This document shows, piece after piece, positions 2,191 through 38,156 of a stretch of 49,189 nt of DNA. Under the pieces are notes generated by a model, which was not told where the DNA came from, searched no databases, and saw only the letters and a program-made list of their open reading frames with translations. The DNA lies in assembly GCA_012520615.1 (NCBI GenBank), contig JAAYNX010000023.1:1-49189 (forward strand), read 5' to 3'. This DNA comes from Clostridiaceae bacterium. Its GTDB lineage: Bacteria; Bacillota; Clostridia; DSM-8532. The stretch's first letter is position 1. Every line of letters begins with the position of its first letter. Position numbers and translations under genes: made by a program.

Positions 2191-2403
2191 TCTCCTTTCA
2201 GAATGTGTAAAACATCGTAAAAAAACAAACTCTGACTCAGATTAATTTAACCTATATGAGTGAAAGAGTCATCCTATATTGGGTGACTCTTTTTGTTAGT
2301 CTTCTAAAATCAGCGCAACACCGTATCGTAGCATTTCTTCATCAATACCCCCTTCGAGGCCTCCGATAATATTTCCGTCTTTATTAAAAACGTAGCTGGC
2401 AGT
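2191..2403. pseudogene. Remnant copy of RHH-gene 3' end, terminator and thioredoxin 3' end
   Basis: This stretch is about 92 percent identical (about 16 substitutions and two small indels by eye) to 5351-5572. It therefore contains the last codons of the small ribbon-helix-helix gene on the plus strand, the shared bidirectional terminator, and the last codons of the TlpA-type thioredoxin gene on the minus strand. No complete reading frame remains. The similarity stops at a GCA shared with the sequence at 7350, suggesting that the rest of the thioredoxin, ccdA and yjfB copies were deleted. Confidence 0.9.
2263..2295. terminator. Hairpin terminator inside the remnant copy
   Basis: AAAGAGTCATCC pairs with GGGTGACTCTTT across a six-base loop and is followed by a T run. 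It is the duplicate of the hairpin at 5423-5456 and may now terminate the DUF362 transcript. Confidence 0.75.
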
Positions 2404-2427
2404 GCAGATATTTCTTGCGTATGACTA
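2404..2427 (+). repeat. Short direct repeat marking a duplication junction
   Basis: A 24-base stretch starting GCAGATATTT is repeated at 7350-7373 with one mismatch, and weaker similarity continues for roughly 35 more bases. In the left copy it directly abuts the thioredoxin remnant; in the right copy it lies upstream of yjfB. This marks the deletion point described in the findings. Confidence 0.8.
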
Positions 2428-3341: not shown

Positions 3342-3947
3342 ATGAAAAAGTTTTTCATAACTTTTGCCATCATACTTACTTGTGTCTTTATCTGGCTCTT
3401 TATCAGGCCTGCACAAGAAACATACATTAAAGAAGTGCCCAGTTACAAGGTAACAGAGTTCAATTTTAGCCATGCAATATCATCAGCCATTGGGCTAAAA
3501 GATATTGGCGGTGATTTAATGATAACCGATTTTAGTATATCCAATGATAATCAGGGCTATATCAGCTATTTATCAATTCATGCCTTACATACATCAAAGG
3601 AAGTATACGACCAGTATGCCATTCAATATCTTACAGAAAATGAAAAGGGAAAATACATAATCCATAAGGCCGTTTTACAGCAGGCTAGTATCAAGGGTAT
3701 TGATATCAACACTATTTCAAACACCCTCAAGGATTTACCAATGGAAGACTTCTCTTCCATAAGGAGCTTAGGCTATTATCAAACGATCAATATTACCTCT
3801 AAAGCTCAAAGTTTTATAGTTGGCCAGGATGGCATAAAACTTTTAGAGGGCAATACCAAAAATGAATTGGAGAATGTTTATGTCATCTATGGCACACCAA
3901 GGGAAACCAATGAATACCCCATTTTTTACTACATTTCAGTGAAATAA
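3342..3947 (+). CDS. Membrane-anchored protein of unknown function
   Basis: This 201-residue protein has a single N-terminal hydrophobic segment (about residues 4-22, FFITFAIILTCVFIWLFI) after a KK pair, so it is an uncleaved membrane anchor or a signal peptide; the rest should lie outside the membrane. No known domain is recognised. It starts with ATG after a GGAGGG ribosome binding site and may be cotranscribed with the secreted protein gene just upstream. Its last 42 codons and stop are duplicated at 7419-7547, where they form a truncated copy. A palindromic repeat follows its stop at 3977. Confidence 0.72.
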   Translation: MKKFFITFAIILTCVFIWLFIRPAQETYIKEVPSYKVTEFNFSHAISSAIGLKDIGGDLMITDFSISNDNQGYISYLSIHALHTSKEVYDQYAIQYLTENEKGKYIIHKAVLQQASIKGIDINTISNTLKDLPMEDFSSIRSLGYYQTINITSKAQSFIVGQDGIKLLEGNTKNELENVYVIYGTPRETNEYPIFYYISVK

Positions 3948-3976
3948 TATTTTTTGAATGTATCATATAATTTAAT

Positions 3977-4119
3977 AGGGGCTGCCTAAAATAGACGGTC
4001 ATCCTGTGAGAATGAAGGATCTTAATAGAATCTGTGCATAACAGCATGATCTTAAAGATCCTTCATCTAATTTATATCTTCAGAATGACACCTTCAATAT
4101 TTTGAGACAGCTCTTTTTG
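3977..4119. repeat. Palindromic MITE-like element, copy 1
   Basis: The element has imperfect terminal inverted repeats (AGGGGCTGCCTAAAATA versus AGAGCTGTCTCAAAATA on the other strand) and internal arms (GTCATCCTG / CAGAATGAC, AAGGATCTT / AAAGATCCTT), so its whole length of about 140 bases can fold into one hairpin. A related element lies at 28619-28763. It has no coding capacity. The right end carries a T run and could serve as a terminator. Confidence 0.8.
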
Positions 4120-5228: not shown

Positions 5229-5405
5229 ATGGTAAAGAAAAATGAGAATGACAAAAAGCAAATATTGTTACGTTTAGCTCCAACTCTCTGGAAAGAGCTG
5301 GCATCATGGGCTGAGGATGATTTCCGCTCAATCAACGGGCAGATTGAATATCTCCTTTCAGAATGTGTAAAACATCGTAAAAAAATAAACTCTGACTCGG
5401 ATTGA
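5229..5405 (+). CDS. Small Arc-type ribbon-helix-helix protein paired with SPFH
   Basis: This 58-codon ORF starts at ATG 5229, five bases after the SPFH stop. Its translation has the hallmarks of a ribbon-helix-helix (Arc/MetJ-like) DNA-binding protein: a short strand KQILLRLAP, a first helix TLWKELASWAEDD, the turn RSINGQ, and a second helix IEYLLSECVKHRKK. The FRSINGQIEYLL segment resembles the Arc-like stretch that ends in a tetramer-forming helix. Such proteins bind DNA as dimers through the first strand. The gene is too short for usual ORF cut-offs. Its 3' end is duplicated at 2191. The identity of the fold is clear by pattern; the DNA target is unknown. Confidence 0.8.
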   Translation: MVKKNENDKKQILLRLAPTLWKELASWAEDDFRSINGQIEYLLSECVKHRKKINSDSD

Positions 5406-5422
5406 TTTAACCTATATGAGTG

Positions 5423-5457
5423 AAAGAGTCTCCCTATACTGGGTGACTCTTTTTTTG
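5423..5457. terminator. Bidirectional terminator between RHH and thioredoxin genes
   Basis: GAAAGAGTC and GACTCTTT pair around CCCTATACTGGG with a T run on the plus strand. It lies between two convergent genes, and its duplicate is at 2263-2295. Confidence 0.8.
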
Positions 5458-6138
5458 TTAGTCTTCTAAAATCAGTGATACGCCGTATCGTAGTGTTTCT
5501 TCATCAATGCCCCCTTCGAGGGCTCCGATAATATTTCCGTCTTTATTAATAAAAAACGTGGTTGGCAGTGCACGTATGCCATATGTTGCCGCAGCATTCT
5601 GCTTGGTATCAAAGAGTACGGTAAAAGTAAATCCCTGCTCCTCTACATGCATCTTTCCTTTTTCTACTGTCTCTCTTCCCCCATCGACCATATCAACCAT
5701 CAGGAATAACAACTCATCTTTGGAGTACTCTTCCGATACTTTGTTGAAATGAGGCATCTCATCCTTGCAAGGCGGGCACCAACTAGCCCAGAAATTGAGA
5801 ACAATCGGAGTTCCTATATAATCTGACAGCTTTACTTCGTTTCCGTCATAATCCAATACCTTAAAGTCTGATGCCTTAAAAGGCTCATCTTCTTGCGGTT
5901 CTTCCCCTTGTTGTAGCTCTTCTCCCTGAGGATCTTCTTCTTGAGGTTCACCTCCCGGCGCAGATGTCTCTGAAGGCGGAACTGAAGCGGAGGATGTCGG
6001 TGTACTTGTTTCTGTGGGAAGTCCTAGGGAATTGGGCGCTTTATATCGCTCGGTTAAATAATTGTATCCTATTACAGCAACTAGAATTAGCAATATAAAA
6101 CCCGCAATATATAATAATGATTTTACTTTTTTGTTCAT
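5458..6138 (-). CDS. TlpA-like membrane-anchored thioredoxin
   Basis: This 226-residue extracytoplasmic thiol-disulfide protein has an N-terminal membrane anchor (about residues 7-26) and a Pro/Glu/Gln-rich low-complexity linker (about 36-90). An AhpC-TSA/Redoxin-type thioredoxin domain follows, with the active site WCPPC near residue 120 and a cis-proline in ALPTTFF. It would reduce or rearrange disulfides outside the membrane, receiving electrons through the CcdA protein encoded just upstream on the same strand. The ATG is preceded by AAGGAGG. The glutamate-rich linker contains imperfect GEEPQE-like repeats. The 3' end of this gene is present as a decayed copy at 2290-2403. Confidence 0.9.
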   Translation of the reverse strand: MNKKVKSLLYIAGFILLILVAVIGYNYLTERYKAPNSLGLPTETSTPTSSASVPPSETSAPGGEPQEEDPQGEELQQGEEPQEDEPFKASDFKVLDYDGNEVKLSDYIGTPIVLNFWASWCPPCKDEMPHFNKVSEEYSKDELLFLMVDMVDGGRETVEKGKMHVEEQGFTFTVLFDTKQNAAATYGIRALPTTFFINKDGNIIGALEGGIDEETLRYGVSLILED

Positions 6139-7373: not shown

Positions 7374-7418
7374 AAAAGTTTTAAACGACAGGGACGTATA
7401 CATTTTATAAGCTTTTTA

Positions 7419-7547
7419 GTTGACCATGATGGCATAAAGCGTTTAGAAAGCAATACAGAAAATGAATTAGAGAATGTTTATGTCCTCTATTGCATACCAA
7501 AAGAAACCAACGAATTCCCCGTTTTTTACTACATTTCAGCGAAATAA
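7419..7547 (+). pseudogene. 3' fragment of a second copy of the 3342-3947 gene
   Basis: This 129-base segment aligns without gaps to 3819-3947 and keeps the reading frame for 42 codons to the same TAA stop, with 18 substitutions (86 percent identity by eye). It lacks a start codon, ribosome binding site and the first 159 codons, so it is a pseudogene. Similarity continues for about 20 bases after the stop. Many substitutions change amino acids, consistent with loss of constraint. Confidence 0.88.
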
Positions 7548-7600
7548 GTGTTTTTGAATGCATCATATATGATGACCAAGAATTTGACATACACTTATTC

Positions 7601-18247: not shown

Positions 18248-18543
18248 AGAATATTCAAGGGTCATTGCTACCGCTCGCCTCACCGGGCGGAACCGTTGCT
18301 AAATGGAAGGATCCCACTGGTCGAAACATTAGCTGAAGTACTTAAAACTACAATTAGTATAAGATTTAAACAAAAAAGACTACCGCGTAAGCCGGAAGCC
18401 TTTATAAATAGTAGGATTATCGGATGGGCGGTGTATCCATCATCTCAGGTACTCTTTCGAGTGCGTCGGGAACCTTTTCCGACCTCAATAACCCTACCAA
18501 AACTAATATATACATTTACATACTAATAATACATCAATTGTTT
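18248..18543. other. Intergenic stretch with no recognised content
   Basis: A stretch of about 300 bases contains a short open frame (18296-18526) starting with TTG and lacking a ribosome binding site. The base composition here is more GC-rich around 18250-18300 and 18380-18480 than nearby, so it could be a decayed insertion, but nothing is recognisable. Confidence 0.4.
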
Positions 18544-25100: not shown

Positions 25101-26057
25101 ATGAACTTTAAAAAGCTACTTAGCCTGTTGATGATTTTTTGTATGATTTTTAGTTTCGTCGCATGTGGAGACAAAGATAAAGATGACGACGATAACAGAA
25201 GTTCAAAATCTAGCTCGCAAAAAGACGCCAGAGACGACGATGATGATGATGACAAAGACGAGAAAAAAGACAAAAAAGACAAAGATGACGAAGATGACGA
25301 AGACGATGAAGACGACAAAAAGGACAAAGACAGCAAGGGTGACAAAAAGGACAAAGATGATGATGTTCTCGCTAAATATGACGAGATTGACCTTCCTAAA
25401 AATTACCCCAGTGATAAATTTCCCATTTATAAGGGCGGACTGGTTTACTCTGCTATAGTTGACAAATCTAGCGGTTTAGAAACCTTCATAGTCAGCGCTG
25501 TATCTAAGGATGATGTTGAAAAAGTAAATGCTTTTTATAAGGGTTTAATAGCAGATGCTGAAGATTTTAGCGATTTCTCTATGGATGAAGTCTACATGTA
25601 TTCCGGTAAATACGAAGGCTATGAATTCACAATCACCTGTGCGCCTGAAGATACTAATAAAGACTACGCTCTGTTTAATTTAATGCTTAAAAAATTGCCC
25701 TCAGTTGAAAGCCTTTTAGAACAACTAAACGAAGGGGAACTACCGGATGATTATCCAGCTGACCATTTCCCAATAATAGATGGTGCAGCTATTATAAATG
25801 CTTCCGAATCTGAGAGTAATGGAGTAGTATCCTATAATCTTAACCTGTACACAGATAAGAGTTTCAAAGAAATTTTGGCTTTCTATGAAGAAGCTATTGG
25901 AGAAATAACAGGCAAGTCAAAGTCGAGCTCTACTGATAGCTTTGAACTTGGCGGAGAGGCTCACGGATATGACTTCGATATTAGCGGCCGCAAAACCGAG
26001 CGGGACGGTATTGATTTAGTAGAATACTGGATCTATCTCTATCCGCTATCAGAATGA
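25101..26057 (+). CDS. Acidic lipoprotein with internal duplication
   Basis: This 318-residue protein has a lipoprotein signal peptide with lipobox FVAC (Cys near residue 22). A remarkable low-complexity stretch of Asp/Lys repeats (about residues 23-88) follows, then two related domains of about 95 residues each. The first begins LPKNYPSDKFPI and the second LPDDYPADHFPI; both contain a VxAFY/LAFYEE-type helix and end in a short YxLFNLMLKKL or YWIYLYPL strand, so they arose by duplication. No enzymatic motif is seen. It is likely an exported cell-surface protein with a highly charged linker next to the membrane. A strong terminator follows, and an extended -10 (TGCTAAAAT at about 25056-25064) precedes the gene. 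Confidence 0.75.
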   Translation: MNFKKLLSLLMIFCMIFSFVACGDKDKDDDDNRSSKSSSQKDARDDDDDDDKDEKKDKKDKDDEDDEDDEDDKKDKDSKGDKKDKDDDVLAKYDEIDLPKNYPSDKFPIYKGGLVYSAIVDKSSGLETFIVSAVSKDDVEKVNAFYKGLIADAEDFSDFSMDEVYMYSGKYEGYEFTITCAPEDTNKDYALFNLMLKKLPSVESLLEQLNEGELPDDYPADHFPIIDGAAIINASESESNGVVSYNLNLYTDKSFKEILAFYEEAIGEITGKSKSSSTDSFELGGEAHGYDFDISGRKTERDGIDLVEYWIYLYPLSE

Positions 26058-26080
26058 TCAATTAAAATTTTAGTACTTAT

Positions 26081-26110
26081 AGGATCGGATTTTGTGTCCG
26101 ATCCTTTTTT
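26081..26110 (+). terminator. Terminator of the lipoprotein gene
   Basis: AGGATCGGA and TCCGATCCT pair across a seven-base loop and are followed by T6. It begins 24 bases after the stop. Confidence 0.9.
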
Positions 26111-26368
26111 ATTCCTTTCTTTTGTATAATCTTGCCTTTCGTTGCAGTACACTATAGAAAAACACTACACACTTTTAAAACATTATAGACATTAATCTCT
26201 GATTACTAGAAGTTTTACTATAAACTATTCTAAACTATAGTTTATAATTGTATGGCAGTAATATTGAATGCAGACATTAATTGCTATAGAATTAATAATA
26301 ATAATTTAATTTAAATTCTGTTATTATTATAAGGGCACTTATGATAGACAACAGAAAGGAGAACAACA
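26111..26368 (+). promoter_or_regulatory. Upstream region of nfnAB with AT-rich palindrome
   Basis: About 260 AT-rich bases without an ORF. A 12-base perfect palindrome AAACTATAGTTT lies at 26232-26243, overlapping a TATAAT at 26243-26248; no convincing -35 box is visible. The palindrome could be an operator, but I do not recognise the regulator, and it does not match the Rex consensus. Confidence 0.4.
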
Positions 26369-27214
26369 GTGTATAAAATAGTCAGAAAAGAAATTTTAAA
26401 TTCGCAAGTGACGTTACTTGAGATAGAAGCGCCTTATGTTGCACGAAAAGCCGAACCTGGCCAGTTTATTATACTTAGGGTAGCCGAAGATGGCGAACGT
26501 GTTCCTTTTACTATAGCTGATTATGACAGAGATAAAGGGACTGTTACTATTATATTCCAAGAGGTCGGCGCTACAACTCAAATACTAGGGCAAATGAACG
26601 AGGGAGATCATTTGGTTGATTTTGTCGGCCCTCTTGGTGTTGCGTCCCATTTTGAAGGCGTTAAAAAGGCTGCTGTCATTGGTGGAGGTTTAGGTACCGC
26701 AATTGCTTATCCGCAAGCTAAAAAGCTGCATAGCATGGGTGTTTCGGTAGATGTTATCGCAGGCTTCAGAAACAAGGATATCATTATTCTTGAAAAAGAA
26801 ATGGCTGCTGTATCAGATAGATTATTCATTACTACTGACGATGGTTCCAATGGAACAAAGGGTTTTGTATCCGATATACTGCAAAAGCTACTTGATGAAG
26901 GTAACAAATACGATATTGTTATAGCCATCGGTCCACCAATTATGATGAGAGTGGTATGTGAAGTTACCAGACCCTATGGTATTAAAACTATCGTAAGCTT
27001 AAATCCTATTATGATTGACGGAACTGGGATGTGCGGCGGCTGCCGTGTTACAGTTGGCGGAAAAACAAAGTTCGCATGTGTTGACGGGCCTGATTTTGAC
27101 GGTCATCAAGTAGATTTCAACGAGCTTATGCGGCGCCTTTCAATGTACAAGGATAGCGAAAAAGCATCAATAGAGAGACATCAATGTAGATTGGAGGGTC
27201 AAACAAATGCCTAA
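26369..27214 (+). CDS. nfnA: NADH-dependent ferredoxin:NADP oxidoreductase subunit A
   Basis: This 281-residue FAD and [2Fe-2S] subunit of the Nfn complex couples NADH and reduced ferredoxin to NADP reduction by electron bifurcation. It has a ferredoxin-reductase-type FAD domain (RVPFTIADYD), an NAD-binding domain (VIGGGLGTAIAYPQAK) and the C-terminal Cys block GMCGGCRVTVGGKTKFAC that binds the 2Fe-2S cluster. The GTG start at 26369 follows GAAAGGAG. The 3' end overlaps nfnB by eight bases, so the two subunits are made together. Older annotation would call it a sulfide dehydrogenase subunit. Confidence 0.93.
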   Translation: MYKIVRKEILNSQVTLLEIEAPYVARKAEPGQFIILRVAEDGERVPFTIADYDRDKGTVTIIFQEVGATTQILGQMNEGDHLVDFVGPLGVASHFEGVKKAAVIGGGLGTAIAYPQAKKLHSMGVSVDVIAGFRNKDIIILEKEMAAVSDRLFITTDDGSNGTKGFVSDILQKLLDEGNKYDIVIAIGPPIMMRVVCEVTRPYGIKTIVSLNPIMIDGTGMCGGCRVTVGGKTKFACVDGPDFDGHQVDFNELMRRLSMYKDSEKASIERHQCRLEGQTNA

Positions 27215-28598
27215 TATGTCACCAAAAAAAGTTCCAATTCCTGAGCAAGATCCTAAGGTTCGCAGTGGGAATTTTAAAGAGGTTACTCTGGGTTATACAG
27301 AAGAAATGGCCATAGAAGAGGCTCAGCGCTGTTTGAATTGTAAGCATAAACCATGTGTAAGCGGCTGCCCTGTAAATGTAAAAATCCCCGAGTTTATCTC
27401 CCTTATATCGGAAGGTAAGTTCGAGGATGCTTATAATAAAATTCTAGAAACCAATAGCCTTCCTGCTGTTTGCGGACGTGTCTGCCCACAGGAGAGTCAG
27501 TGTGAGGAGAAATGTGTCCGGGCAATTAAAGGCGAATCAGTTGCTATTGGCAGACTTGAACGATTTGCTGCCGATTGGGCTATTAACAATGTTGAAAAAA
27601 CCTATGAAAAGGTTCCAAGTAACGGTAAAAAGGTAGCTATTATAGGTTCTGGTCCTTCCGGATTGGCTTGCGCCGGTGATCTTGTTAAACAGGGCTATCA
27701 GGTAACAATATTTGAAGCCTTCCACCTTGCCGGAGGGGTGTTGGTATACGGCATACCTGAATTCAGACTTCCTAAAAGTCTTGTACAAAAAGAAATCGAG
27801 GGGCTTTTAAGACAAGGCGTACAGATACGCACAAATATGGTCATCGGAAAAGTTCTGACTATAGAGGAGCTTTTTGAAGAGGGGTATGATGCTGTATTTA
27901 TCGGCTCAGGAGCAGGGCTTCCATCCTTTATGAATATTCCTGGTGAGAACTTAAACGGGGTATATTCAGCTAACGAATTTTTGACCCGTATTAATCTTAT
28001 GAAGGCCTATAAAGAAGACGCCGAAACCCCCATTATGCATGGAGATGCCGTGGCTGTTGTCGGAGGCGGAAACGTGGCTATGGATGCTGCCAGGTGCGCT
28101 AAGCGTTTAGGGGCTGAAAATGTTTATATAATCTATAGACGTTCCGAGGCCGAAATGCCTGCCCGTCTAGAAGAAGTTCATCATGCAAAGGAAGAGGGCA
28201 TTATATTTAAAGTTCTCACAAATCCTACTCAAATTCTCGGCGATGAAAAGGGCTGGGTTAAGGGAATTGAGTGTATCGAGATGGAATTAGGGGAACCTGA
28301 TTCATCAGGTCGACGTCGCCCAATCGCTAAAGAAGGCAGTGAGCATGTCATTGATGTAGATACAGTAATAATGTCAATCGGTACCTCTCCTAATCCTTTA
28401 ATTCGCACTACTACCCCGGATCTTGAAACAAATAAATGGGGTTGTATAGTTGTTGATGATAAAACCGGGCAAACAAGTAAAGAAGGCGTATTTGCCGGCG
28501 GAGATGCAGTAACGGGTGCTGCCACAGTTATTTTGGCTATGGGTGCCGGAAAAACTGCTGCAAAGGCCATAGATGAATATATTAAAAGTAAATCTTGA
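27207..28598 (+). CDS. nfnB: NADH-dependent ferredoxin:NADP oxidoreductase subunit B
   Basis: This 463-residue large subunit of NfnAB is homologous to the small subunit of glutamate synthase and is often annotated gltA. It has two N-terminal [4Fe-4S] cysteine sets (CLNCKHKPCVSGCP and CGRVCPQESQCEEKC), an FAD-binding GSGPSGLACAGDL near residue 150, an NADP-binding VVGGGNVAMDAARC near residue 285, and the closing FAD motif GVFAGGDAVTGAATV. The pair NfnA-NfnB is the arrangement of the bifurcating enzyme, so I prefer that over glutamate synthase. A MITE-like hairpin starting 20 bases after the stop may terminate the transcript. Confidence 0.93.
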   Translation: MPNMSPKKVPIPEQDPKVRSGNFKEVTLGYTEEMAIEEAQRCLNCKHKPCVSGCPVNVKIPEFISLISEGKFEDAYNKILETNSLPAVCGRVCPQESQCEEKCVRAIKGESVAIGRLERFAADWAINNVEKTYEKVPSNGKKVAIIGSGPSGLACAGDLVKQGYQVTIFEAFHLAGGVLVYGIPEFRLPKSLVQKEIEGLLRQGVQIRTNMVIGKVLTIEELFEEGYDAVFIGSGAGLPSFMNIPGENLNGVYSANEFLTRINLMKAYKEDAETPIMHGDAVAVVGGGNVAMDAARCAKRLGAENVYIIYRRSEAEMPARLEEVHHAKEEGIIFKVLTNPTQILGDEKGWVKGIECIEMELGEPDSSGRRRPIAKEGSEHVIDVDTVIMSIGTSPNPLIRTTTPDLETNKWGCIVVDDKTGQTSKEGVFAGGDAVTGAATVILAMGAGKTAAKAIDEYIKSKS

Positions 28599-28618
28599 TT
28601 ATTTGGTTTATCTGGTAA

Positions 28619-28763
28619 GAGGGGCTGTTTCAAAATAGACAGTCATCCTGAGCGAAGCGAAGGATCTTCAGCAATCTGTGCTTTACAGCAGATTTCTTGA
28701 AGATTCTTCGGCCATTTATGGCCTCAGAATGATACGTTTCGTATTTTGATGCAGCCTCTTTTT
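28619..28763. repeat. Palindromic MITE-like element, copy 2
   Basis: Terminal inverted repeats AGGGGCTGTTTCAAAATA and (on the other strand) AGAGGCTGCATCAAAATA enclose arms GTCATCCTGAG / CTCAGAATGAT and AAGGATCTTCAG / TTGAAGATTCTTC, so the whole element folds into one long hairpin. It is a relative of 3977-4119 and ends in a T run, so it can also terminate nfnB transcription. It has no ORF. Confidence 0.85.
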
Positions 28764-28795
28764 TATAATTTTTTTGCAACTTTCGAAATTAATTC

Positions 28796-28824
28796 TTGCA
28801 TTGCACTATCCCATTTGCTATAAT
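28796..28824 (+). promoter_or_regulatory. Promoter of gdhA
   Basis: TTGCAT at 28796-28801 and TATAAT at 28819-28824 are separated by 17 bases. Confidence 0.75.
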
Positions 28825-30370
<1,546 letters not shown>

Positions 30371-30385
30371 TAGATAGGCATTGTA

Positions 30386-30430
30386 AGGGGGACGGTTTTG
30401 TTGTCTAATGAAACCGTCCCCCTAATTTTT
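30386..30430 (+). terminator. Terminator of gdhA
   Basis: AAGGGGGACGGTTTT pairs with AAACCGTCCCCCT across a loop of about 11 bases, then TAATTTTT. The 3' arm ends exactly where a 53-base copy of the peptidase gene begins. Confidence 0.88.
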
Positions 30431-30473
30431 CGGTGGTTTCCTTAAAGTGATCTAAAATTTCTTTGGTATACCG
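30421..30473 (+). repeat. 53-base copy of an internal peptidase gene segment
   Basis: This segment matches 31629-31681 (inside the M20 peptidase gene) at 52 of 53 positions in the same orientation. It carries no function here. The remainder of the intergenic space to 30684 contains AT-rich sequence and a weak, RBS-less frame only. Confidence 0.92.
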
Positions 30474-30684
30474 CTATATTCACCTGCTAATCAATCAATA
30501 TTTACATTTATTTCTATTATACTACAAAGCCGATACAGGATAAGGTTCGGTTTTAATTTGAATAAATTTCTATAAATTTTTTGTAGTTTAAACTAAATTA
30601 TGATATTATTCAATGGGTAAGCAGTTCGTTGTTAATTCAGTTATACATGTTAAACAGCATTATAGTATTGTGGGGGGAATCCAA

Positions 30685-31245
30685 TTGAAGGCTTTTTTAA
30701 TAAGTTTCGCAATAGCAATAGTCTTGTATGGGATATCATTGTATATTTCAGCGCTAGTAAAAAGACCGATATTATGTAGCAATGTTTTTATAGCATTCGC
30801 TTCTCTATGTATAGCATTAAGAAGTTTTTTCGAAAGAGGGATTTCCAGTATAGATCAGCCTATTATAATTATATCGCTACTACTACTGTTTTCCTTAATT
30901 CATTTTGTTACAATCGGCCTTAAGTATTCTATAGGGGTTGACATGGACGTGCTCAACAATGAGCTGATTTCTCTTAAGTTTACGCCTGAAGGACAAAAGC
31001 GGGATAATAAAACACATAAATACTTTGCCCCTAATGGCACAAAAATAATAGCAAAGCAATATCCACAAAATAAATTCATAGAGATACGTATAGTAAACGG
31101 AATACGATTTAAAAGAATAAACGATGTAAGAACATCACTTCTTCCTGTTTTAAAGAAGTATACGGTAAATAGCAATTTGAAATTAAACAGTATTTTAATT
31201 ATTTTGTCAGGCTTAGTTCTCTTCGGCATATATCTGTTTATCTGA
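30685..31245 (+). CDS. Small membrane protein of unknown function
   Basis: This membrane protein of about 186 residues has hydrophobic segments near residues 3-20, 30-48, 60-80 and 166-184. Between them lies a soluble part rich in Lys, Arg and Ile. I recognise no family. The start is uncertain: TTG at 30685 follows GGGGGG at good distance; an upstream in-frame ATG at 30613 lacks a ribosome binding site and would add 24 residues. The gene sits between two short copied fragments of its right-hand neighbours (30421-30473 and 31259-31327), so it may have arrived during or after the duplication that made them. Confidence 0.6.
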   Translation: MKAFLISFAIAIVLYGISLYISALVKRPILCSNVFIAFASLCIALRSFFERGISSIDQPIIIISLLLLFSLIHFVTIGLKYSIGVDMDVLNNELISLKFTPEGQKRDNKTHKYFAPNGTKIIAKQYPQNKFIEIRIVNGIRFKRINDVRTSLLPVLKKYTVNSNLKLNSILIILSGLVLFGIYLFI

Positions 31246-31258
31246 TAGATGAGGGAGA

Positions 31259-31327
31259 TCTTCCTGAATTTCAATAGAAGCGTTATTGAATATATTTATT
31301 GAAGCTTCTGCACAAAGCGGTATATCG
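31259..31327 (+). repeat. 69-base copy of an internal U32 peptidase gene segment
   Basis: This matches 33754-33822 (inside the U32 gene) at 67 of 69 positions, same orientation. It ends seven bases from the stop codon of the M20 peptidase gene. Confidence 0.92.
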
Positions 31328-31333
31328 CTATCC

Positions 31334-32455
31334 CTAACCAAGATAAGCTGCCTTTATAATAGCCGTCAGGAAATGGCATGCCTTTTCCATGTCCGATATG
31401 CGGATATATTCTGTAGTGCTATGGACATTTGCCATTCCAACGCTTGTATTAACAGCGGGTATGCCAGCACCATTTATAATATTGGTGTCGCTTCCTCCAC
31501 CTGTGGCATGGAATTTTAATGGTATATTCGACATAGTCGAAGCCTTTTTCAGAAGATTAATAATATCATCGGTCTCTTTAATATTAAAACCGGGATACAT
31601 TTTTTCCAGTTCTATTTCTACTGTTCCGCCTAATTTTTCAGTGGTTTCCTTAAAGTGATCTAAAATTTCTTTGGTATACCGATCAATCTTTTCTTCCGAT
31701 ATAGACCGCACCTCACCCTCAATGGAGCAAGTTTCGCATACGATATTGCGTACCTGCCCACCCTGTATTGTGCCTATGTTAGAGGTGCTTTCTTCATCTA
31801 TTCTTCCAAAATGGGGCATATCGGCTATTGCTTTTGATGCCAGCATAATAGCGCTTAATCCCTTTTCAGGTTCCAATCCCGCATGGGCGGCCCGTCCAAT
31901 GAATTTAACCGCAAATCTGTTGTAATATGGGGCTTTAACAGCTACTGTCCCGATTTCTCCACCCTCATCAAGAATTATGGCATAATCTGCCGGAATCTTT
32001 GAAAGGTCAAGGCTTGCCGCTCCGAATAACCCACCTTCTTCTGCCACCGTAAAAGCTATATAAATGTCTCCAAATGGCGTTTTATCCTCCATAAGAGACT
32101 TTATTGTTTCCAAAATTACAACAACTCCTGCGGCATCGTCTCCGCCAAGAACAGTTTTCCCATCAGTCTTTATAATGTCTCCATCTATTATTGGATTTTT
32201 GGAAAGCCCCGGCACAACCGTATCCATATGCGCCATCAAAAGCAATGCTGGCTCTGCTTTCTCGCCCTTTATATGACAAATCACATTCCCTGCATTGCCG
32301 CCTATTTTAGAGCCAGTATTGTCCTCATATGGTTCAAGGCCCATATCTTTCAGTTTTCTTAAAAGTGCATCAGCCATTTTTCTTTCCTGCTTTGAAAGAC
32401 TGTCTATCTTTACTAAACTTATAAATTCATCAGTGAGTCTTTGCCTGTCTACCAT
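31334..32455 (-). CDS. M20 family metallopeptidase (peptidase T-like)
   Basis: This 373-residue zinc aminopeptidase-like enzyme probably trims short peptides in the cytoplasm. M20 residues are in place: HMDTVVPG (first metal His and Asp), GGDDAAGVV (bridging Asp), AEEGGLFGA (general base Glu), DEGGEIG and the last His in NVHSTTEYI. A dimerisation (lid) domain lies at about residues 180-290. It belongs to the PepT/YqjE-like branch; the specificity is not determined. Its stop abuts the 69-base U32 fragment, and part of the gene (31629-31681) is copied upstream of the membrane protein gene. Confidence 0.9.
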   Translation of the reverse strand: MVDRQRLTDEFISLVKIDSLSKQERKMADALLRKLKDMGLEPYEDNTGSKIGGNAGNVICHIKGEKAEPALLLMAHMDTVVPGLSKNPIIDGDIIKTDGKTVLGGDDAAGVVVILETIKSLMEDKTPFGDIYIAFTVAEEGGLFGAASLDLSKIPADYAIILDEGGEIGTVAVKAPYYNRFAVKFIGRAAHAGLEPEKGLSAIMLASKAIADMPHFGRIDEESTSNIGTIQGGQVRNIVCETCSIEGEVRSISEEKIDRYTKEILDHFKETTEKLGGTVEIELEKMYPGFNIKETDDIINLLKKASTMSNIPLKFHATGGGSDTNIINGAGIPAVNTSVGMANVHSTTEYIRISDMEKACHFLTAIIKAAYLG

Positions 32456-32585
32456 TTTTTCTTCTCCTATCCTTATATCAAGATTTTAATGGGATTTTAT
32501 TTTTTGAGAACGCCTTACCCTAGCCTCCATTAAATCCCGAAACGTTGGACTGATGCATATTATAACTGATTTATACTGACTTCCT

Positions 32586-33080
32586 CTATAACCCGGTAGA
32601 GCCAAAACCTCCACCTCTGTCAGTGCCTATATCCTTAACTGAATCCACTATTTTAAGGTTCATTCTCGGAACCTCGGCTAAAACCAGTTGTGCAATCCGC
32701 TCCCCTTTTCTGATAATATATGTGCCCTTTTGATTCCCTTTGCTGTCTAAGCCCAAGTAATCATCAGCATTTTTATCATTACTTACTATGGATGAATTGC
32801 TCATTATTATACCCAGTTCGTCCCTATATCCCGCATCGATTGTACCCGGAGAGTTGGCAATACGAAGAGGGGTTTTAAGGCTAATCCCGCTCCTAGGGCG
32901 AACCTGAATTTCATAACCTTCGGGAATTGCAAATTTTAACCCCGTTGGGATAACGGCTGTCTGCCCGGGCTCTATTATTATTTCCTCTGCTGCGCATACA
33001 TCCATACCTGCATCGTAGGGATTAGCGTAATAAGGCAATTTAACGCCTTCTCTTATTATTTCAACATGAACATCAATCAT
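32586..33080 (-). CDS. dut: dUTP diphosphatase
   Basis: This enzyme of 164 residues hydrolyses dUTP to dUMP, keeping uracil out of DNA and feeding dTMP synthesis. All five trimeric dUTPase motifs are visible: PYDAGMDVCAAE, RPRSGIS, GTIDAGYRDELGI, GERIAQLVL and the flexible C-terminal RGGGFGSTG. It is somewhat longer than the roughly 145-residue enzymes because of an insert near residues 100-120 (NADDYLGLDSKGNQKG), seen also in other clostridial dUTPases. It lies between the U32 gene and the M20 peptidase gene on the same strand. Confidence 0.96.
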   Translation of the reverse strand: MIDVHVEIIREGVKLPYYANPYDAGMDVCAAEEIIIEPGQTAVIPTGLKFAIPEGYEIQVRPRSGISLKTPLRIANSPGTIDAGYRDELGIIMSNSSIVSNDKNADDYLGLDSKGNQKGTYIIRKGERIAQLVLAEVPRMNLKIVDSVKDIGTDRGGGFGSTGL

Positions 33081-33260
33081 AATCCGCTCCTAAAACAATT
33101 CAATCTAAGATAGAAATTGAATATATTATATCACAAGCCATCGCAAGGAGCAGTAATCGCTTCTTTGAGCTATGATAACCAAAAGAATATTTGAAAATCA
33201 ACCTGACGCACTTAAAAAAAATGAGAATTTTAATTAATCAACACACAAAAAAGTGAACTT

Positions 33261-35708
33261 TTACTCCACTCCCCTAAACCAATGGCCTTTGGTAAATCCA
33301 TTGTCCCTAATCTCTTTTATAGCTTCGATAATCCAAGGCTCATGGTTATTTTTGCCCTTTAATTTTTCTCTATAATATTGAGCTAGCGCTTTGCGGGCAT
33401 CCCTATTTTCATTGGTAAAAACGAGTCTGAGGGTACTTATCTCTGTTTCCTTCAATGCGTCTACATCATCAATGAAGATTGGATATGCGTTGAAAATTTG
33501 AGTGCGTTTTAATATTGAATCCCTTATAAATGGGAAAACTTCGTTCTTCCTATCCTTTAAGAATCCTTTATTTCCACTACATTCCGCACATTTACCCGAA
33601 CAAGGAATCTCAAGAGATGAGGGACAGTGTTCCATAGTCATAAGAGGAATTCTACCATATATTATAGCTTCCAAATCTACTTGTGAAGATACTATTTCTT
33701 TAACCTCTTTTAAATTCAGCTCCGGCGATAAAACAGCCGTTGCGACATTGAGTTCTTCCTGAATTTCAACAGAAGCGTTATTGAATATATTTATTGAAGC
33801 TTCTGCACAAAGCGATATATCGGGGAAAGCTTCTTTGCACAACTTATAAACGCCAAGGTTTCCAAAGGCTATACCGTCAATAAAAGGCACTATGCTTTGG
33901 AGCTCTTTTTTTATACCTGATAACTCCATATCTTTAAGTATTGAAGGTGTCCAAATATATATTTCGCCGCTAAATTTGTCTTTAATATTTTGAAGAATTT
34001 TATACGATGAAATTGGAAGATAAACACGGCTTACCAGGCCATTTAACTCATCAATTGAATCGGGTAACGCATGAAAGAATGCTGACAGACTTTTTTCATG
34101 CTTGTATATAGGAGCAGACCATTGCTCAACTGTATTATCAATTACAGAAGGAGCAGACTTTTTGTGGTTTTTTATACGTAAAGTTTTTATGCCTTCCAAA
34201 GCCTCACGCCTCATGGCGTTAAGGGCTGAAATGGGCATAGTGCTTTTATTATCGGTATCTATGGACAAATTTCGTAAATAGTAAGGGGTACCTCCCGTTT
34301 TTTCAAGCTGCTCTCTTATTCGTTCATTTGATAGTACCTTATTAATGGCTTTTTCGGCTACAGTATCAGAGATTAAATTAATAAAATTGCCCTCAGAATC
34401 TGTTGCTTTAAGCTTTGCCGGTTGACCTATTTTTAATGTGAACTCCATATCAAGGGGTACTGTAGGCACCTCTTTTTGTTCGAAGGTTCTTCTTGCATCC
34501 TCAAACAAAGGCTTGGAAAGAGTCTTGTAAACCTGGCTTCCTTCTTTTGCATCAGCCTTAACATCTCCTATCCATACCTCAGTGCCTGCCTGGGCAAAAC
34601 GCACCTGCTTATCATTTTCCAAAATAGATGTAACTATAAAACTAATGGTATCCCCATGAGGATTCATAATCTCAATTCCGTCTCCCATATGAAGAGACTT
34701 ATCCAATTTCACTTTTATATATAATGGTTTGGTTGCTAATACTTTTCCAATCAGCACTCCCTGATTCTTAGGATGCTTTGGATATACAAGCTTTCTAAAA
34801 TTACGGCTTCCCTCTAGATATCCACGGGTAAAACCGCCCCGATTAAAGGCTTGCATTAAGATTTCCTTGTCAGCCTCTTCAACCAAATATTCCTTTTCGC
34901 CCAATCCTTCCAACATATCTACATACTTTCTGTATATAGAGGTCACAATTGCTACATATTCAGGGGATTTCATCCGTCCTTCAAGTTTAAGGGAGCAAAC
35001 ACCCGCTTTTTTAAGCCGAGGCAAAAGTTCAATGGTCATAAGATCTCTGGGACTAATTAGATAAGAGGTGTCGCCGTATTTATTACCATCTTCTGATAAA
35101 GACCATGGTAGTCTGCAGGGTTGTGCACACAAGCCACGATTACCGCTCCTTCCGCCTATAAAGGAAGACATTAGGCATTGGCCAGAATAGCATACACAAA
35201 GAGCTCCGTGAATGAATACTTCCAGCTCGGCGGAGCTTTTTTCACATATAAACTTGATTTCTTCAAGGGTTAGCTCCCGGGGCAGGACCACCCTGTTGAC
35301 ACCCAAATCCTCAATAGTTTTCACAGATTCACTATTAGCAAGGGTCATCTGGGTACTGGCATGTATATTTAATTCGGGGAGATATTTCCTAAGAAGCTTA
35401 ACCAAACCCAAGTCTTGAACAATAACAGCATCCGCACCCTCTTTATAGATATACTCTGCGAATTTTAGTCCGTCATATAGCTCATGATTTTTCATCAGTG
35501 TATTAAGGGTTATATAAACCTTTTTGCCTCGTTCGTGAGCATAGTCTAAAGCATCTGTAATTTCTGCCTCTGTAAAATTGGCCGCATTGACTCTGGCGTT
35601 GTGTTTACCTCCGCCTAAATAAACTGCATCTGCACCATTCAAAATTGCCGCTTTAAGTGATTCAAAGCTGCCCGCGGGAGCGAGCAGCTCTAATTTATAA
35701 TCTCTCAT
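33261..35708 (-). CDS. U32 peptidase-like protein with DUF3656 (RlhA-like)
   Basis: This 815-residue protein combines an N-terminal U32 TIM-barrel domain (about 1-290: ELLAPAGSFESLKAAILNGADAVYLGG) with the U32 cysteine signature (FIHGALCVCYSGQCLMSSF and NRGLCAQPCR) and a DUF3656 region in the middle and C-terminal parts. The cysteines of GKCAECSGNKG near the C-terminus are additional. The same layout occurs in E. coli RlhA (YdcP), which hydroxylates 23S rRNA C2501; a similar role is likely here rather than proteolysis. It lies downstream of a small membrane protein gene and zapA, a frequent clostridial order. A segment of it is copied at 31259-31327. Confidence 0.85.
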   Translation of the reverse strand: MRDYKLELLAPAGSFESLKAAILNGADAVYLGGGKHNARVNAANFTEAEITDALDYAHERGKKVYITLNTLMKNHELYDGLKFAEYIYKEGADAVIVQDLGLVKLLRKYLPELNIHASTQMTLANSESVKTIEDLGVNRVVLPRELTLEEIKFICEKSSAELEVFIHGALCVCYSGQCLMSSFIGGRSGNRGLCAQPCRLPWSLSEDGNKYGDTSYLISPRDLMTIELLPRLKKAGVCSLKLEGRMKSPEYVAIVTSIYRKYVDMLEGLGEKEYLVEEADKEILMQAFNRGGFTRGYLEGSRNFRKLVYPKHPKNQGVLIGKVLATKPLYIKVKLDKSLHMGDGIEIMNPHGDTISFIVTSILENDKQVRFAQAGTEVWIGDVKADAKEGSQVYKTLSKPLFEDARRTFEQKEVPTVPLDMEFTLKIGQPAKLKATDSEGNFINLISDTVAEKAINKVLSNERIREQLEKTGGTPYYLRNLSIDTDNKSTMPISALNAMRREALEGIKTLRIKNHKKSAPSVIDNTVEQWSAPIYKHEKSLSAFFHALPDSIDELNGLVSRVYLPISSYKILQNIKDKFSGEIYIWTPSILKDMELSGIKKELQSIVPFIDGIAFGNLGVYKLCKEAFPDISLCAEASINIFNNASVEIQEELNVATAVLSPELNLKEVKEIVSSQVDLEAIIYGRIPLMTMEHCPSSLEIPCSGKCAECSGNKGFLKDRKNEVFPFIRDSILKRTQIFNAYPIFIDDVDALKETEISTLRLVFTNENRDARKALAQYYREKLKGKNNHEPWIIEAIKEIRDNGFTKGHWFRGVE

Positions 35709-35760
35709 TTAAAAACCTACTTAATAATTAACATTTCTATATTGGTTATAATCTCTTTAT

Positions 35761-36321
35761 TTATTCAACATTTTCTTCCATAGGCTCTTCATTAGCTTCC
35801 GGCTCTACCTTTACATAATCATCGGGAGCAATGTCCTGCTCATGGATTTCGTTAGTTTCTACCTCTACTTCATCGGGCTTGTTAATACCGGGTTTATACT
35901 TGTATTTATAAACCGTTCCGCTTTTCTTTTTTGACTTACTTTTTCTCTTCTCATACATTGTCTTAACTGCATCTATAATATCAAGAATCGATTTGGCCTT
36001 TAACACAATATCCTTTTGTATTGTTTCAGCGCCTTTCTTTACTGTTTCCGAAATTTTTCCTACATCTTCAACTACTTTTCCAAGGCCATCAAGATTATCT
36101 TTTACCATCCCTGTAATTTTGGCTGTATTCTCGGTTATTTCGGGAAGATTTTCCACAGTCTTATTAATATTATCTTTATTCTTTTCAATTATTTGATTTA
36201 CATTTTTTAAAATCCGAAGTAAGTTCACCACAGCTAGAATAAGATAAAAGATAAGTGCTGACCCAAGAACAAAGAGAACAAGAACTATAAGTTCTCCCCA
36301 TGATATCATTTCATTAAACAT
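35761..36321 (-). CDS. Membrane-anchored coiled-coil protein
   Basis: This 186-residue protein has a single N-terminal membrane segment (about residues 10-35) followed by a long helical coiled-coil with Asn/Ile/Lys/Glu heptads (about 40-120). The C-terminus is Lys-rich then acidic with Glu/Val/Pro repeats. It resembles the DUF948-like type of membrane-tethered coiled coils. The function is unknown; its place between zapA and the U32 gene suggests a link to division or envelope. ATG follows CGGAGG. Confidence 0.7.
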   Translation of the reverse strand: MFNEMISWGELIVLVLFVLGSALIFYLILAVVNLLRILKNVNQIIEKNKDNINKTVENLPEITENTAKITGMVKDNLDGLGKVVEDVGKISETVKKGAETIQKDIVLKAKSILDIIDAVKTMYEKRKSKSKKKSGTVYKYKYKPGINKPDEVEVETNEIHEQDIAPDDYVKVEPEANEEPMEENVE

Positions 36322-36335
36322 AGTATATCCTCCGT

Positions 36336-36752
36336 TTAATAATTGTTCTTCTTGTTAGAAATAGTATTTATGGTATTCCTCACTTCTTTTAGCTCTGTTT
36401 CTCTTCTTGTTAATTCTATCCGAAGCTGAGATTCCCGTTCCTTCAGTTTTACGTTTTCAGTTTTATTTCTTTGTGATTCTTCCTTAAGGTCCTGATATTT
36501 CTTTTTAAGTTCTGCTAATTCCGCTTCGGTTTCTTTAAGTTCCTCGCCCGTTTTAAACAGCTCATCGGCCATATTTATTGCAGTCAGAACTGATGCCATT
36601 GAAGTGCTAAGCAGATGATTTTTTCTGGTAATCTCCAAAACCTTTCTATCAACAAAAAGAGCAATTCTTTGTATGTATTCTGGAGACTCGGACCCGGTTA
36701 ATACATATTCATTTCCTGCAATACGAACAGTTACTTTATTTTTTTCAGCCAA
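36336..36752 (-). CDS. zapA: Cell division protein ZapA
   Basis: ZapA promotes bundling of FtsZ filaments at mid-cell. The protein of about 138 residues has the N-terminal ZapA domain (VTVRIAGNEYVLTGSESPEYIQRIA, about 4-90) and a long C-terminal coiled coil with Lys/Glu heptads, longer than the classical short ZapA. I start it at TTG 36752, which follows GGAG at about 8 bases; upstream only another TTG is available, with no ATG. It is cotranscribed with the coiled-coil protein that follows after 14 bases. Confidence 0.85.
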   Translation of the reverse strand: MAEKNKVTVRIAGNEYVLTGSESPEYIQRIALFVDRKVLEITRKNHLLSTSMASVLTAINMADELFKTGEELKETEAELAELKKKYQDLKEESQRNKTENVKLKERESQLRIELTRRETELKEVRNTINTISNKKNNY

Positions 36753-36889
36753 GATACCAGCTCCATTCAATAACAATTTCTCTTAAGTAGTTTATAATTA
36801 ATTCAATTGCATTTTAATACTTTTAATTATACTATATTTTGTCAAGTAAAACACTCTAAACAAAAACAAAAGCAACACGATTGCCTGCT

Positions 36890-37312
36890 TTATTTTTCAT
36901 ACTTTTCTCTTAAGAATTCACCAAATTTCCTATCAATATCCAGGATATGATGTTCAAGCCATTTACTTAAAAAATCCAACACACTCATTATGGTCTCATT
37001 CTGATTCTCATCCAAATCGTACAGATTTATAGATGTTACTTTGTTTACAAAGCCTTTATGCTCAAGCTTCTGTATCTTTGTGTTGAATGAATCATAGCCA
37101 TGCTCTTCAAATAACTTTTCCTCATGATTGAAGTGGTATACAGTGTAATCTTTCAGACGGCCAAAAACCTCTACAATACTGTCATAGCGATCAATATGAT
37201 CATCATATAAAGATAAATCATTCATTTCATTAATCATATCAATCATCTTTTTGTGCTGTTCATCAATTGTGCTGTCATAACAGCTAAACTCAGGTTTCCA
37301 TTTAATAATCAT
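36890..37312 (-). CDS. Bacteriohemerythrin
   Basis: This 140-residue single-domain hemerythrin has the diiron ligands: His in IDEQHKKM, His and Glu in YHFNHEEKLFEE, His in LEHKGF and His plus Asp in LEHHILDIDR. Bacteriohemerythrins bind O2 reversibly and protect or sense in anaerobes. It starts at ATG after GGGGGAT. It stands apart from the zapA operon and upstream of it; the 194 bases toward sigH hold a T-rich region with no gene. Confidence 0.93.
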   Translation of the reverse strand: MIIKWKPEFSCYDSTIDEQHKKMIDMINEMNDLSLYDDHIDRYDSIVEVFGRLKDYTVYHFNHEEKLFEEHGYDSFNTKIQKLEHKGFVNKVTSINLYDLDENQNETIMSVLDFLSKWLEHHILDIDRKFGEFLREKYEK

Positions 37313-37505
37313 AGCGAACGATCCCCCTAAAATAAAATCATAAAAACTATATCTTTGTGCTAAACGGCAAATTTTCTTGCTTTTTCGACAAATTTCTTAT
37401 ATAATTTTTTTGACACTGATACCTTAACATACTTTTACCTCCTTTTTAGCACATTTTTTTAATTTGGCCTGTTTTATTGACAGGCCAATATTTTTAGTAT
37501 CAGGT

Positions 37506-38156
37506 CTAGTCAATGTCTTCTGCTTTTATTTCCTGAACGCTTTTTTCGATTTTCTTCTTCAACCGTTGAAGCGCGTTATCCACCGATTTTACCGGCTTAT
37601 TGAGTTGCTTTGCAATATCATGATAGTTTATTCCCACTAAATACTTTTTTAATACTTCTCTTTCAAAAGGACTCAAAAGCTCTATTACCATACTTTCAAT
37701 AACCGTATATTCTTCTTTGTTTATGAAAAGCTCCTCAGGGTCAACGATAGATTCTTCTTGAACTAATTCAATCAAGGACTTATCAGAATCTTCGTCAAAT
37801 ATTCTTCTGTTAAGTGAAACATAAGAATTTAAGGGCATGTGTTTTTGCCTTGTAGCGGTTTTAACAGCAGTAATAATCTGCCGGGTAATGCATATTTCTG
37901 CAAATACTTTAAAAGGAATACGTTTATCATCCTTGTAATCACGAACCGCTTTGAAAAGGCCAATCATACCTTCTTGAACAATATCCTCTCTATCGGCACC
38001 CACAAGGAAGTAGCTCCTGGCCTTTGCTCGTACCAAGGGCTTGTACTTTTCAATAAGATGTTCCATCCCGCGCTTACATCCTGAATGAACGTATGAAAGA
38101 ACTTCTTCATCGCTCATACTAAGATAGTCTACTTTAGATTTTCCCAAGTAAGGCAC
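37506..38156 (-). CDS. sigH: Sporulation RNA polymerase sigma factor SigH
   Basis: SigH directs transcription at the transition to stationary phase and early sporulation. The 216-residue protein has a sigma-70 region 2 (EYLIEK..PLVRAKARSYFLVGADREDIVQEGMIGL) and region 4 (LSPFEREVLKKYLVGINYHDIAKQLN) that match SigH of Bacillus and Clostridium closely. The start is GTG 38156 with GGAGG nine bases upstream. It lies downstream of the P-loop/Asp23 gene by 20 bases on the same strand and may share its transcript. Confidence 0.95.
   Translation of the reverse strand: MPYLGKSKVDYLSMSDEEVLSYVHSGCKRGMEHLIEKYKPLVRAKARSYFLVGADREDIVQEGMIGLFKAVRDYKDDKRIPFKVFAEICITRQIITAVKTATRQKHMPLNSYVSLNRRIFDEDSDKSLIELVQEESIVDPEELFINKEEYTVIESMVIELLSPFEREVLKKYLVGINYHDIAKQLNKPVKSVDNALQRLKKKIEKSVQEIKAEDID

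Follow-up and report, generated by a model that had tools for sequence, protein, structure and literature searches.

A membrane protein gene between near-identical scraps of its neighbours in a clostridial genome points to a probable local duplication with asymmetric loss

The window (the whole 49,189-nt stretch of DNA analysed, from a Clostridiaceae genome referred to here as G000) carries, between the terminator of gdhA and an M20-type peptidase gene, a membrane protein gene that is bracketed by two short copies of parts of neighbouring genes (Table 1). Three intact genes follow on the opposite strand, encoding the M20 peptidase, a protein that we take to be dUTPase (dut, 32586–33080, named from its sequence rather than from a family scan) and a U32-family peptidase.

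Table 1. Features of the gdhA–M20–dut–U32 region (positions in the window)
Feature	Position	Strand	Basis and remarks
gdhA hairpin terminator	30386–30423	+	Terminator scan, 17-pair stem; tail AATTTTT; T-run belongs to M20 copy
M20 left relic	30417–30473	- (coding sense)	55/57 identical to 31625–31681
Region upstream of membrane gene	30474–30684	+	First 33 nt resemble dut upstream (suggestive only)
Membrane protein gene	30685–31245	+	ORF, 186 codons, TTG start; hydropathy; homologues
U32 right relic	31255–31327	- (coding sense)	70/73 identical to 33750–33822
U32 relic/native M20 end junction	31328–31333	.	Sequence; putative duplication joint
M20-type peptidase gene, intact	31334–32455	-	ORF; Pfam Peptidase_M20, M20_dimer, M42; left relic's parent
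dut (presumed dUTPase), intact	32586–33080	-	ORF; present in all 13 genus loci fetched
dut–U32 gap, present	33081–33260	.	Membrane gene or 30474–31258 trace undetected
U32 peptidase-family gene, intact	33261–35708	-	ORF; Pfam Peptidase_U32 3.2e-97; right relic's parent

The frame of the membrane protein gene is intact and encodes 186 residues, its translation likely beginning at the TTG at 30685, which sits behind a G-rich, ribosome-binding-like stretch. Hydropathy describes three N-terminal hydrophobic stretches, a soluble part of ~80 residues and one C-terminal hydrophobic stretch. An earlier note on this DNA had placed a membrane protein of no known family, with this start, between the two scraps, a description that we can uphold: the product has no Pfam match at curated cut-offs, no persuasive hit in NCBIfam, PHROGs or PADLOC (lowest E 0.03–0.09, single members) and a best E of 0.53 against the sequences of solved structures. 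The AlphaFold model, derived from three sequences, is of low confidence (mean pLDDT 64.5), and a Foldseek comparison of this model with the PDB gave nothing at an E of 0.001, the best value being 0.042. We name no function, the family, structure-sequence and fold searches having given nothing. The gene is poorer in G+C (0.32) than M20 (0.42) or gdhA (0.45), as it is at third codon positions (0.29, versus 0.35 and 0.40); this composition could hint at another origin, but the homologue of a related species (G003, described below) is alike (third-position G+C 0.32).

Both flanking scraps are direct repeats of sequence inside the intact genes downstream, recovered by repeat search and by self-BLAST of the window, the self-alignment proposed in the earlier note (E 5.9e-20 for the M20 pair and 5.1e-27 for the U32 pair, ~96% identity each). 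The counts first reported, 52/53 and 67/69 in the same orientation, hold for the cores of repeats that prove slightly longer; the core alignments contain one mismatch in 53 (M20) and two in 69 (U32), and the longer alignments add two more mismatches near their edges. Beyond parent and copy, no third instance of either scrap sequence occurs in G000 (2.67 Mb), where a query of 31328–35708 found one weak extra match (79% over 52 nt on contig C1), away from the scrap parts. In a search of 14 genomes no relative showed a counterpart of the scraps, the three matches outside G000 falling in the U32 stretch of the query. While the surroundings of the parents are 72–78% identical to those of the three closest species (G011, G001 and G002), the scraps are 96–98% identical to their parents, and the copies are therefore recent, made in this lineage after its split from those species; the recent origin proposed earlier is borne out. 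Both core differences in the U32 scrap alter an amino acid (V to I, S to P), and at one of the two the scrap matches G011 and G001 and not its parent; the three core differences give no decision on dating or polarising the copies.

These same details bear on whether the arrangement is an assembly chimera. The genome is metagenome-derived and lies in 256 contigs, and the relatives G003 and G005 are likewise metagenome-assembled, yet the scraps carry substitutions of their own, their longest exact runs with the parents are only 41 and 44 nt, the joints are formed of single-copy sequence and two other assemblies bear out the gene family; we regard a chimera as highly improbable.

We gauged how unusual such scraps are by comparing with itself the window together with 40 further stretches of G000 (416,602 bases, ~16% of the genome) and 16 loci of relatives (248,792 bases), retaining local repeats of 30–300 nt at ≥88% identity and <6 kb apart, with the low-complexity filter on. 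Besides the two scrap pairs, eight others passed: four in the organism's own DNA (window 2191–2406 with 5351–5572, and one each in L098, L111 and L114) and four in relatives (L033, L035, L037 and L038). After inspection of frames, in none of these eight pairs does one member fall within a clear gene while its partner lies beyond it; both L114 members lie within the same frames, and the short frames (81–112 codons) over the L033 and L038 members look spurious in our judgement. Given that no comparable gene scrap occurs elsewhere in the compared DNA, we treat the two scraps, within 1 kb and flanking one gene, as products of one history. Among the window's other repeats, 2191–2406 with 5351–5572 (222 nt, 90%) lies outside frames of at least 80 codons, 3809–3969 pairs with 7409–7569 (161 nt, 85%), and 3973–4118 pairs with 28616–28765 (~150 nt, 77%).

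The edges of the block are closely set against native sequence. The M20 scrap lies at the gdhA terminator, as first described, and overlaps it (30417–30473, with the stem at 30386–30423). At the right, the U32 scrap ends near the M20 stop codon (31334–31336), 6 nt before it; it directly adjoins the sequence just downstream of M20, placing the duplicate beside the original segment. There is possible microhomology, CCTAATTTTT, at the left joint, found in both the terminator and M20, and the left edge may have formed by deletion between the two occurrences; since the tail of the terminator could just as well be M20 sequence, the microhomology is not proof. The right ends of the two scraps share 12 of 13 nt (30465–30477, GGTATACCGCTAT; 31319–31331, GGTATATCGCTAT), the last four bases of this string lying outside the copied parts of both parents.

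The order of the genes around the block was compared across the genus. The M20 peptidase gives one match per genome in 14/14 genomes; in the relatives' M20 loci it lies beside dut in 13/13, with gdhA within the stretch in 11 of these 13, and dut stands between M20 and U32 in all 12 loci that reach U32. In six outgroup species of the genus (L039, L040, L041, L042, L043 and L044) two further long frames lie beside M20, on its gdhA side where gdhA is held; by eye, they resemble a proton-channel (ExbB/MotA-like) and OmpA/MotB-like pair. A midpoint-rooted FastTree phylogeny of nine joined proteins from the 14 genomes, some of them incomplete, unites G005, G006 and G007 in one clade (support 1.000), whose sister clade comprises G003, G000, G011, G001 and G002; the clade that includes G000 and G003 has a support of 0.977.

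Homologues of the membrane protein occur in 5/32 genomes of the family, the present one included, and all five belong to one genus (5/14 of its genomes). Those of G003 (36% identity) and G005 (29–30%) are close, those of G004 (27%) and G009 (19%) distant. A wider search of relatives found 6/41 genomes, the sixth (G028) being a marginal match with three stop codons, and among 84,980 GTDB species scanned there were two loci, apparently those of G003 and G005. The gene is absent from the closest relatives, G011, G001 and G002, and from G007, and none of the phage, plasmid or viral contigs searched carries it. In G005 the homologue sits between dut and U32, both of which are encoded on the other strand (its match at the DNA level is weak, with a score of 34 against 33 for the best shuffle), and in G006 the dut–U32 gap of 198 nt holds a frame-broken remnant of the start of the gene (local score 50, against at most 31 in 200 shuffles; tblastn E 0.019 only). 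In G003 the homologue (L045 35–571) has hisZ as its neighbour and lies right where a contig ends, which makes three locations in the genus. The earlier note had asked whether the protein occurs in other species between other fragments: homologues were found, and around the G003 homologue comparison with the G003 M20–dut–U32 region gave nothing beyond chance, a result of hardly any weight with only 34 nt preceding the gene on its contig. The same note counted relatives with the gene and no fragments as contrary evidence; formally G005 is such a case (no scraps in L038), but there the gene occupies the donor place, where none are expected.

The G005 homologue and G006 remnant speak against the first description of a new gene; judged from these comparisons, it is most likely an old one that has moved a few thousand bases from a G005-type place. 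We consider it probable, if with reservation, that a local duplication followed by asymmetric loss took it out of the dut–U32 interval and left it between gdhA and M20. The ancestor would have held gdhA, M20, dut, the membrane gene and U32 in the order of G005; with the gene missing from G011, G001 and G002, the sister clade has to supply the donor place assumed for this lineage. A tandem duplication would then have taken in the segment between the sequence immediately downstream of M20 and a point within U32 (~31328–33822 plus the membrane gene). A duplicate of this stretch had already been proposed, with a unit of 31629–33822 that now appears inexact: because the U32 scrap is directly followed by M20 downstream sequence, the tandem unit would be ~31328–33822, of which 31328–31628 would later have been lost from the left copy. 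Also gone from that copy would be dut, the end of M20 and the greater part of the U32 piece; what we observe is 53–57 nt of M20 and 69–73 nt of U32, and between them the membrane gene together with the region upstream of it. The right copy would have kept M20, dut and U32 and dropped the membrane gene, which is indeed absent there, although the order of events is conjectural. The idea of a tandem duplicate worn down to its ends thus stands, whereas replacement of its interior by the gene does not: its position in G005 and the remnant in G006 make the gene a likely part of the interior.

Several features argue for duplication with asymmetric loss. The old place is visible in relatives, and relics of the genes that flank it there lie on the expected sides in the old order and orientation, M20 at the left and U32 at the right. 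The U32 scrap adjoins the native end of M20 in the way expected of a tandem joint. The order of M20 scrap, membrane gene and U32 scrap in the window is the G005 order, with the same relative strands, minus dut. By our own arithmetic, three oriented pieces allow 48 arrangements, and the collinear one would arise by chance in 1/48.

This collinearity weighs against a single replication-based event, in which template switching (e.g. microhomology-mediated break-induced replication) would have copied the M20, membrane gene region and U32 pieces into the gdhA–M20 gap, the old gene being lost separately. Such an event would account for the shortness of the scraps, their closeness to the source genes and their position where a single block is joined in, for the possible microhomology at the left joint and for the string common to the right ends of both scraps, which the duplication–loss model does not predict and which we cannot explain. 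It would need three switches, and neither a collinear order nor a single orientation is required by it; the microhomology, moreover, may just be M20 sequence now serving as terminator tail. We hold template switching to be unlikely.

What fits duplication with loss badly is the intergenic sequence. The present dut–U32 gap (33081–33260) has no recognisable similarity to 30474–31258 (148/200 shuffles scored as well), and a gene remnant in that gap, sought by DNA shuffling and by tblastn, was not found. A match between the copies is expected only if both kept the same part; if they were ~97% alike recently, the mismatch calls for either complementary losses, later replacement of the gap or the arrival of the block from a different strain. 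The block's first 33 nt score against the dut upstream sequence of the three closest relatives at a level reached by 6/202 control gene starts, and against that of G005, G006 and G007 at a level reached by 17/202, whereas for the real dut upstream sequence the corresponding counts are 137/202 and 28/202; a longer comparison of the block upstream with dut upstream was not significant (p 0.12, mixed ranks). Because the gap shares no recognisable sequence with the moved block, both template switching and import from another strain retain some weight. Under import, the block would have come from another strain of the species, or from a near relative, in which the gene still lay between dut and U32; it would have been joined in next to M20, and the scraps would be donor M20 and U32. 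This would explain how the block upstream and the present gap can differ while the scraps are 96–98% alike, and the core U32 difference shared with G011 and G001 fits it; both core U32 changes, however, alter an amino acid, which suits a copy in decay better than a functioning allele, and three differences are too few to decide. We rate strain import as distinctly unlikely.

The three neighbourhoods in three species (gdhA–M20 in the window, dut–U32 in G005 and beside hisZ in G003) might suggest a transposon, integron or phage insertion that picked up the membrane gene. This appears extremely improbable: the list of open reading frames holds no transposase- or integrase-like frame in 30371–31340, no inverted repeats were found in 26000–38000 at the settings used, none of the plasmids, phages and viral contigs searched matched, and the M20 and U32 scraps would be left unexplained. 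That the gene hops locally without a transposase, by a recurrent copy-and-join relocation leaving it in three places in three species, with scraps at both ends and the shared 13-nt string, seems to us very unlikely.

Duplication with asymmetric loss has counterparts elsewhere, and the best reading of the locus is as a further example of this known kind of event. In animal mitochondrial genomes, tandem duplication and random loss leave relics between reordered genes; the logic is the same, but here the setting is a bacterial chromosome and the relics are very short. Templated insertions at break-repair joints, in a largely eukaryotic literature, likewise leave a rearranged block bordered by short, almost identical copies of DNA from close by, whereas the present scraps are collinear with an ancestral gene order. 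Our literature searches brought up no bacterial report of such short relics on both sides, a negative that carries little weight. Closest is the SNAP model, in which different genes are lost from each copy of a duplication to give a new gene order (Brandis and Hughes 2020, PMC7055797), and which has also been invoked for operon rearrangements (PMC8046335). The model shares with the locus a new gene order, duplicate relics of flanking genes and the loss of different genes from two copies; it is framed for duplications of at least tens of kb held by selection, whereas here the unit would be ~2.5 kb plus the gene, with no selection shown. Its authors note that the completed process leaves no unique feature and propose seeking intermediates, for example pseudogenes with matching active copies (PMC7055797). 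On a very small scale, the locus resembles an intermediate of that sort, since a single genus displays the old order, the new one and the relics, and a systematic search for short collinear scraps flanking relocated genes would make the idea testable.

We assume no function for the scraps themselves. The U32 scrap lies antisense in the predicted 3' transcript of the membrane gene, with no terminator between; that it pairs with U32 mRNA is a very unlikely possibility. Elsewhere in the window, a skipping-rope RNA (RF02924) is found at 18415–18493 on the minus strand (74.5 bits).
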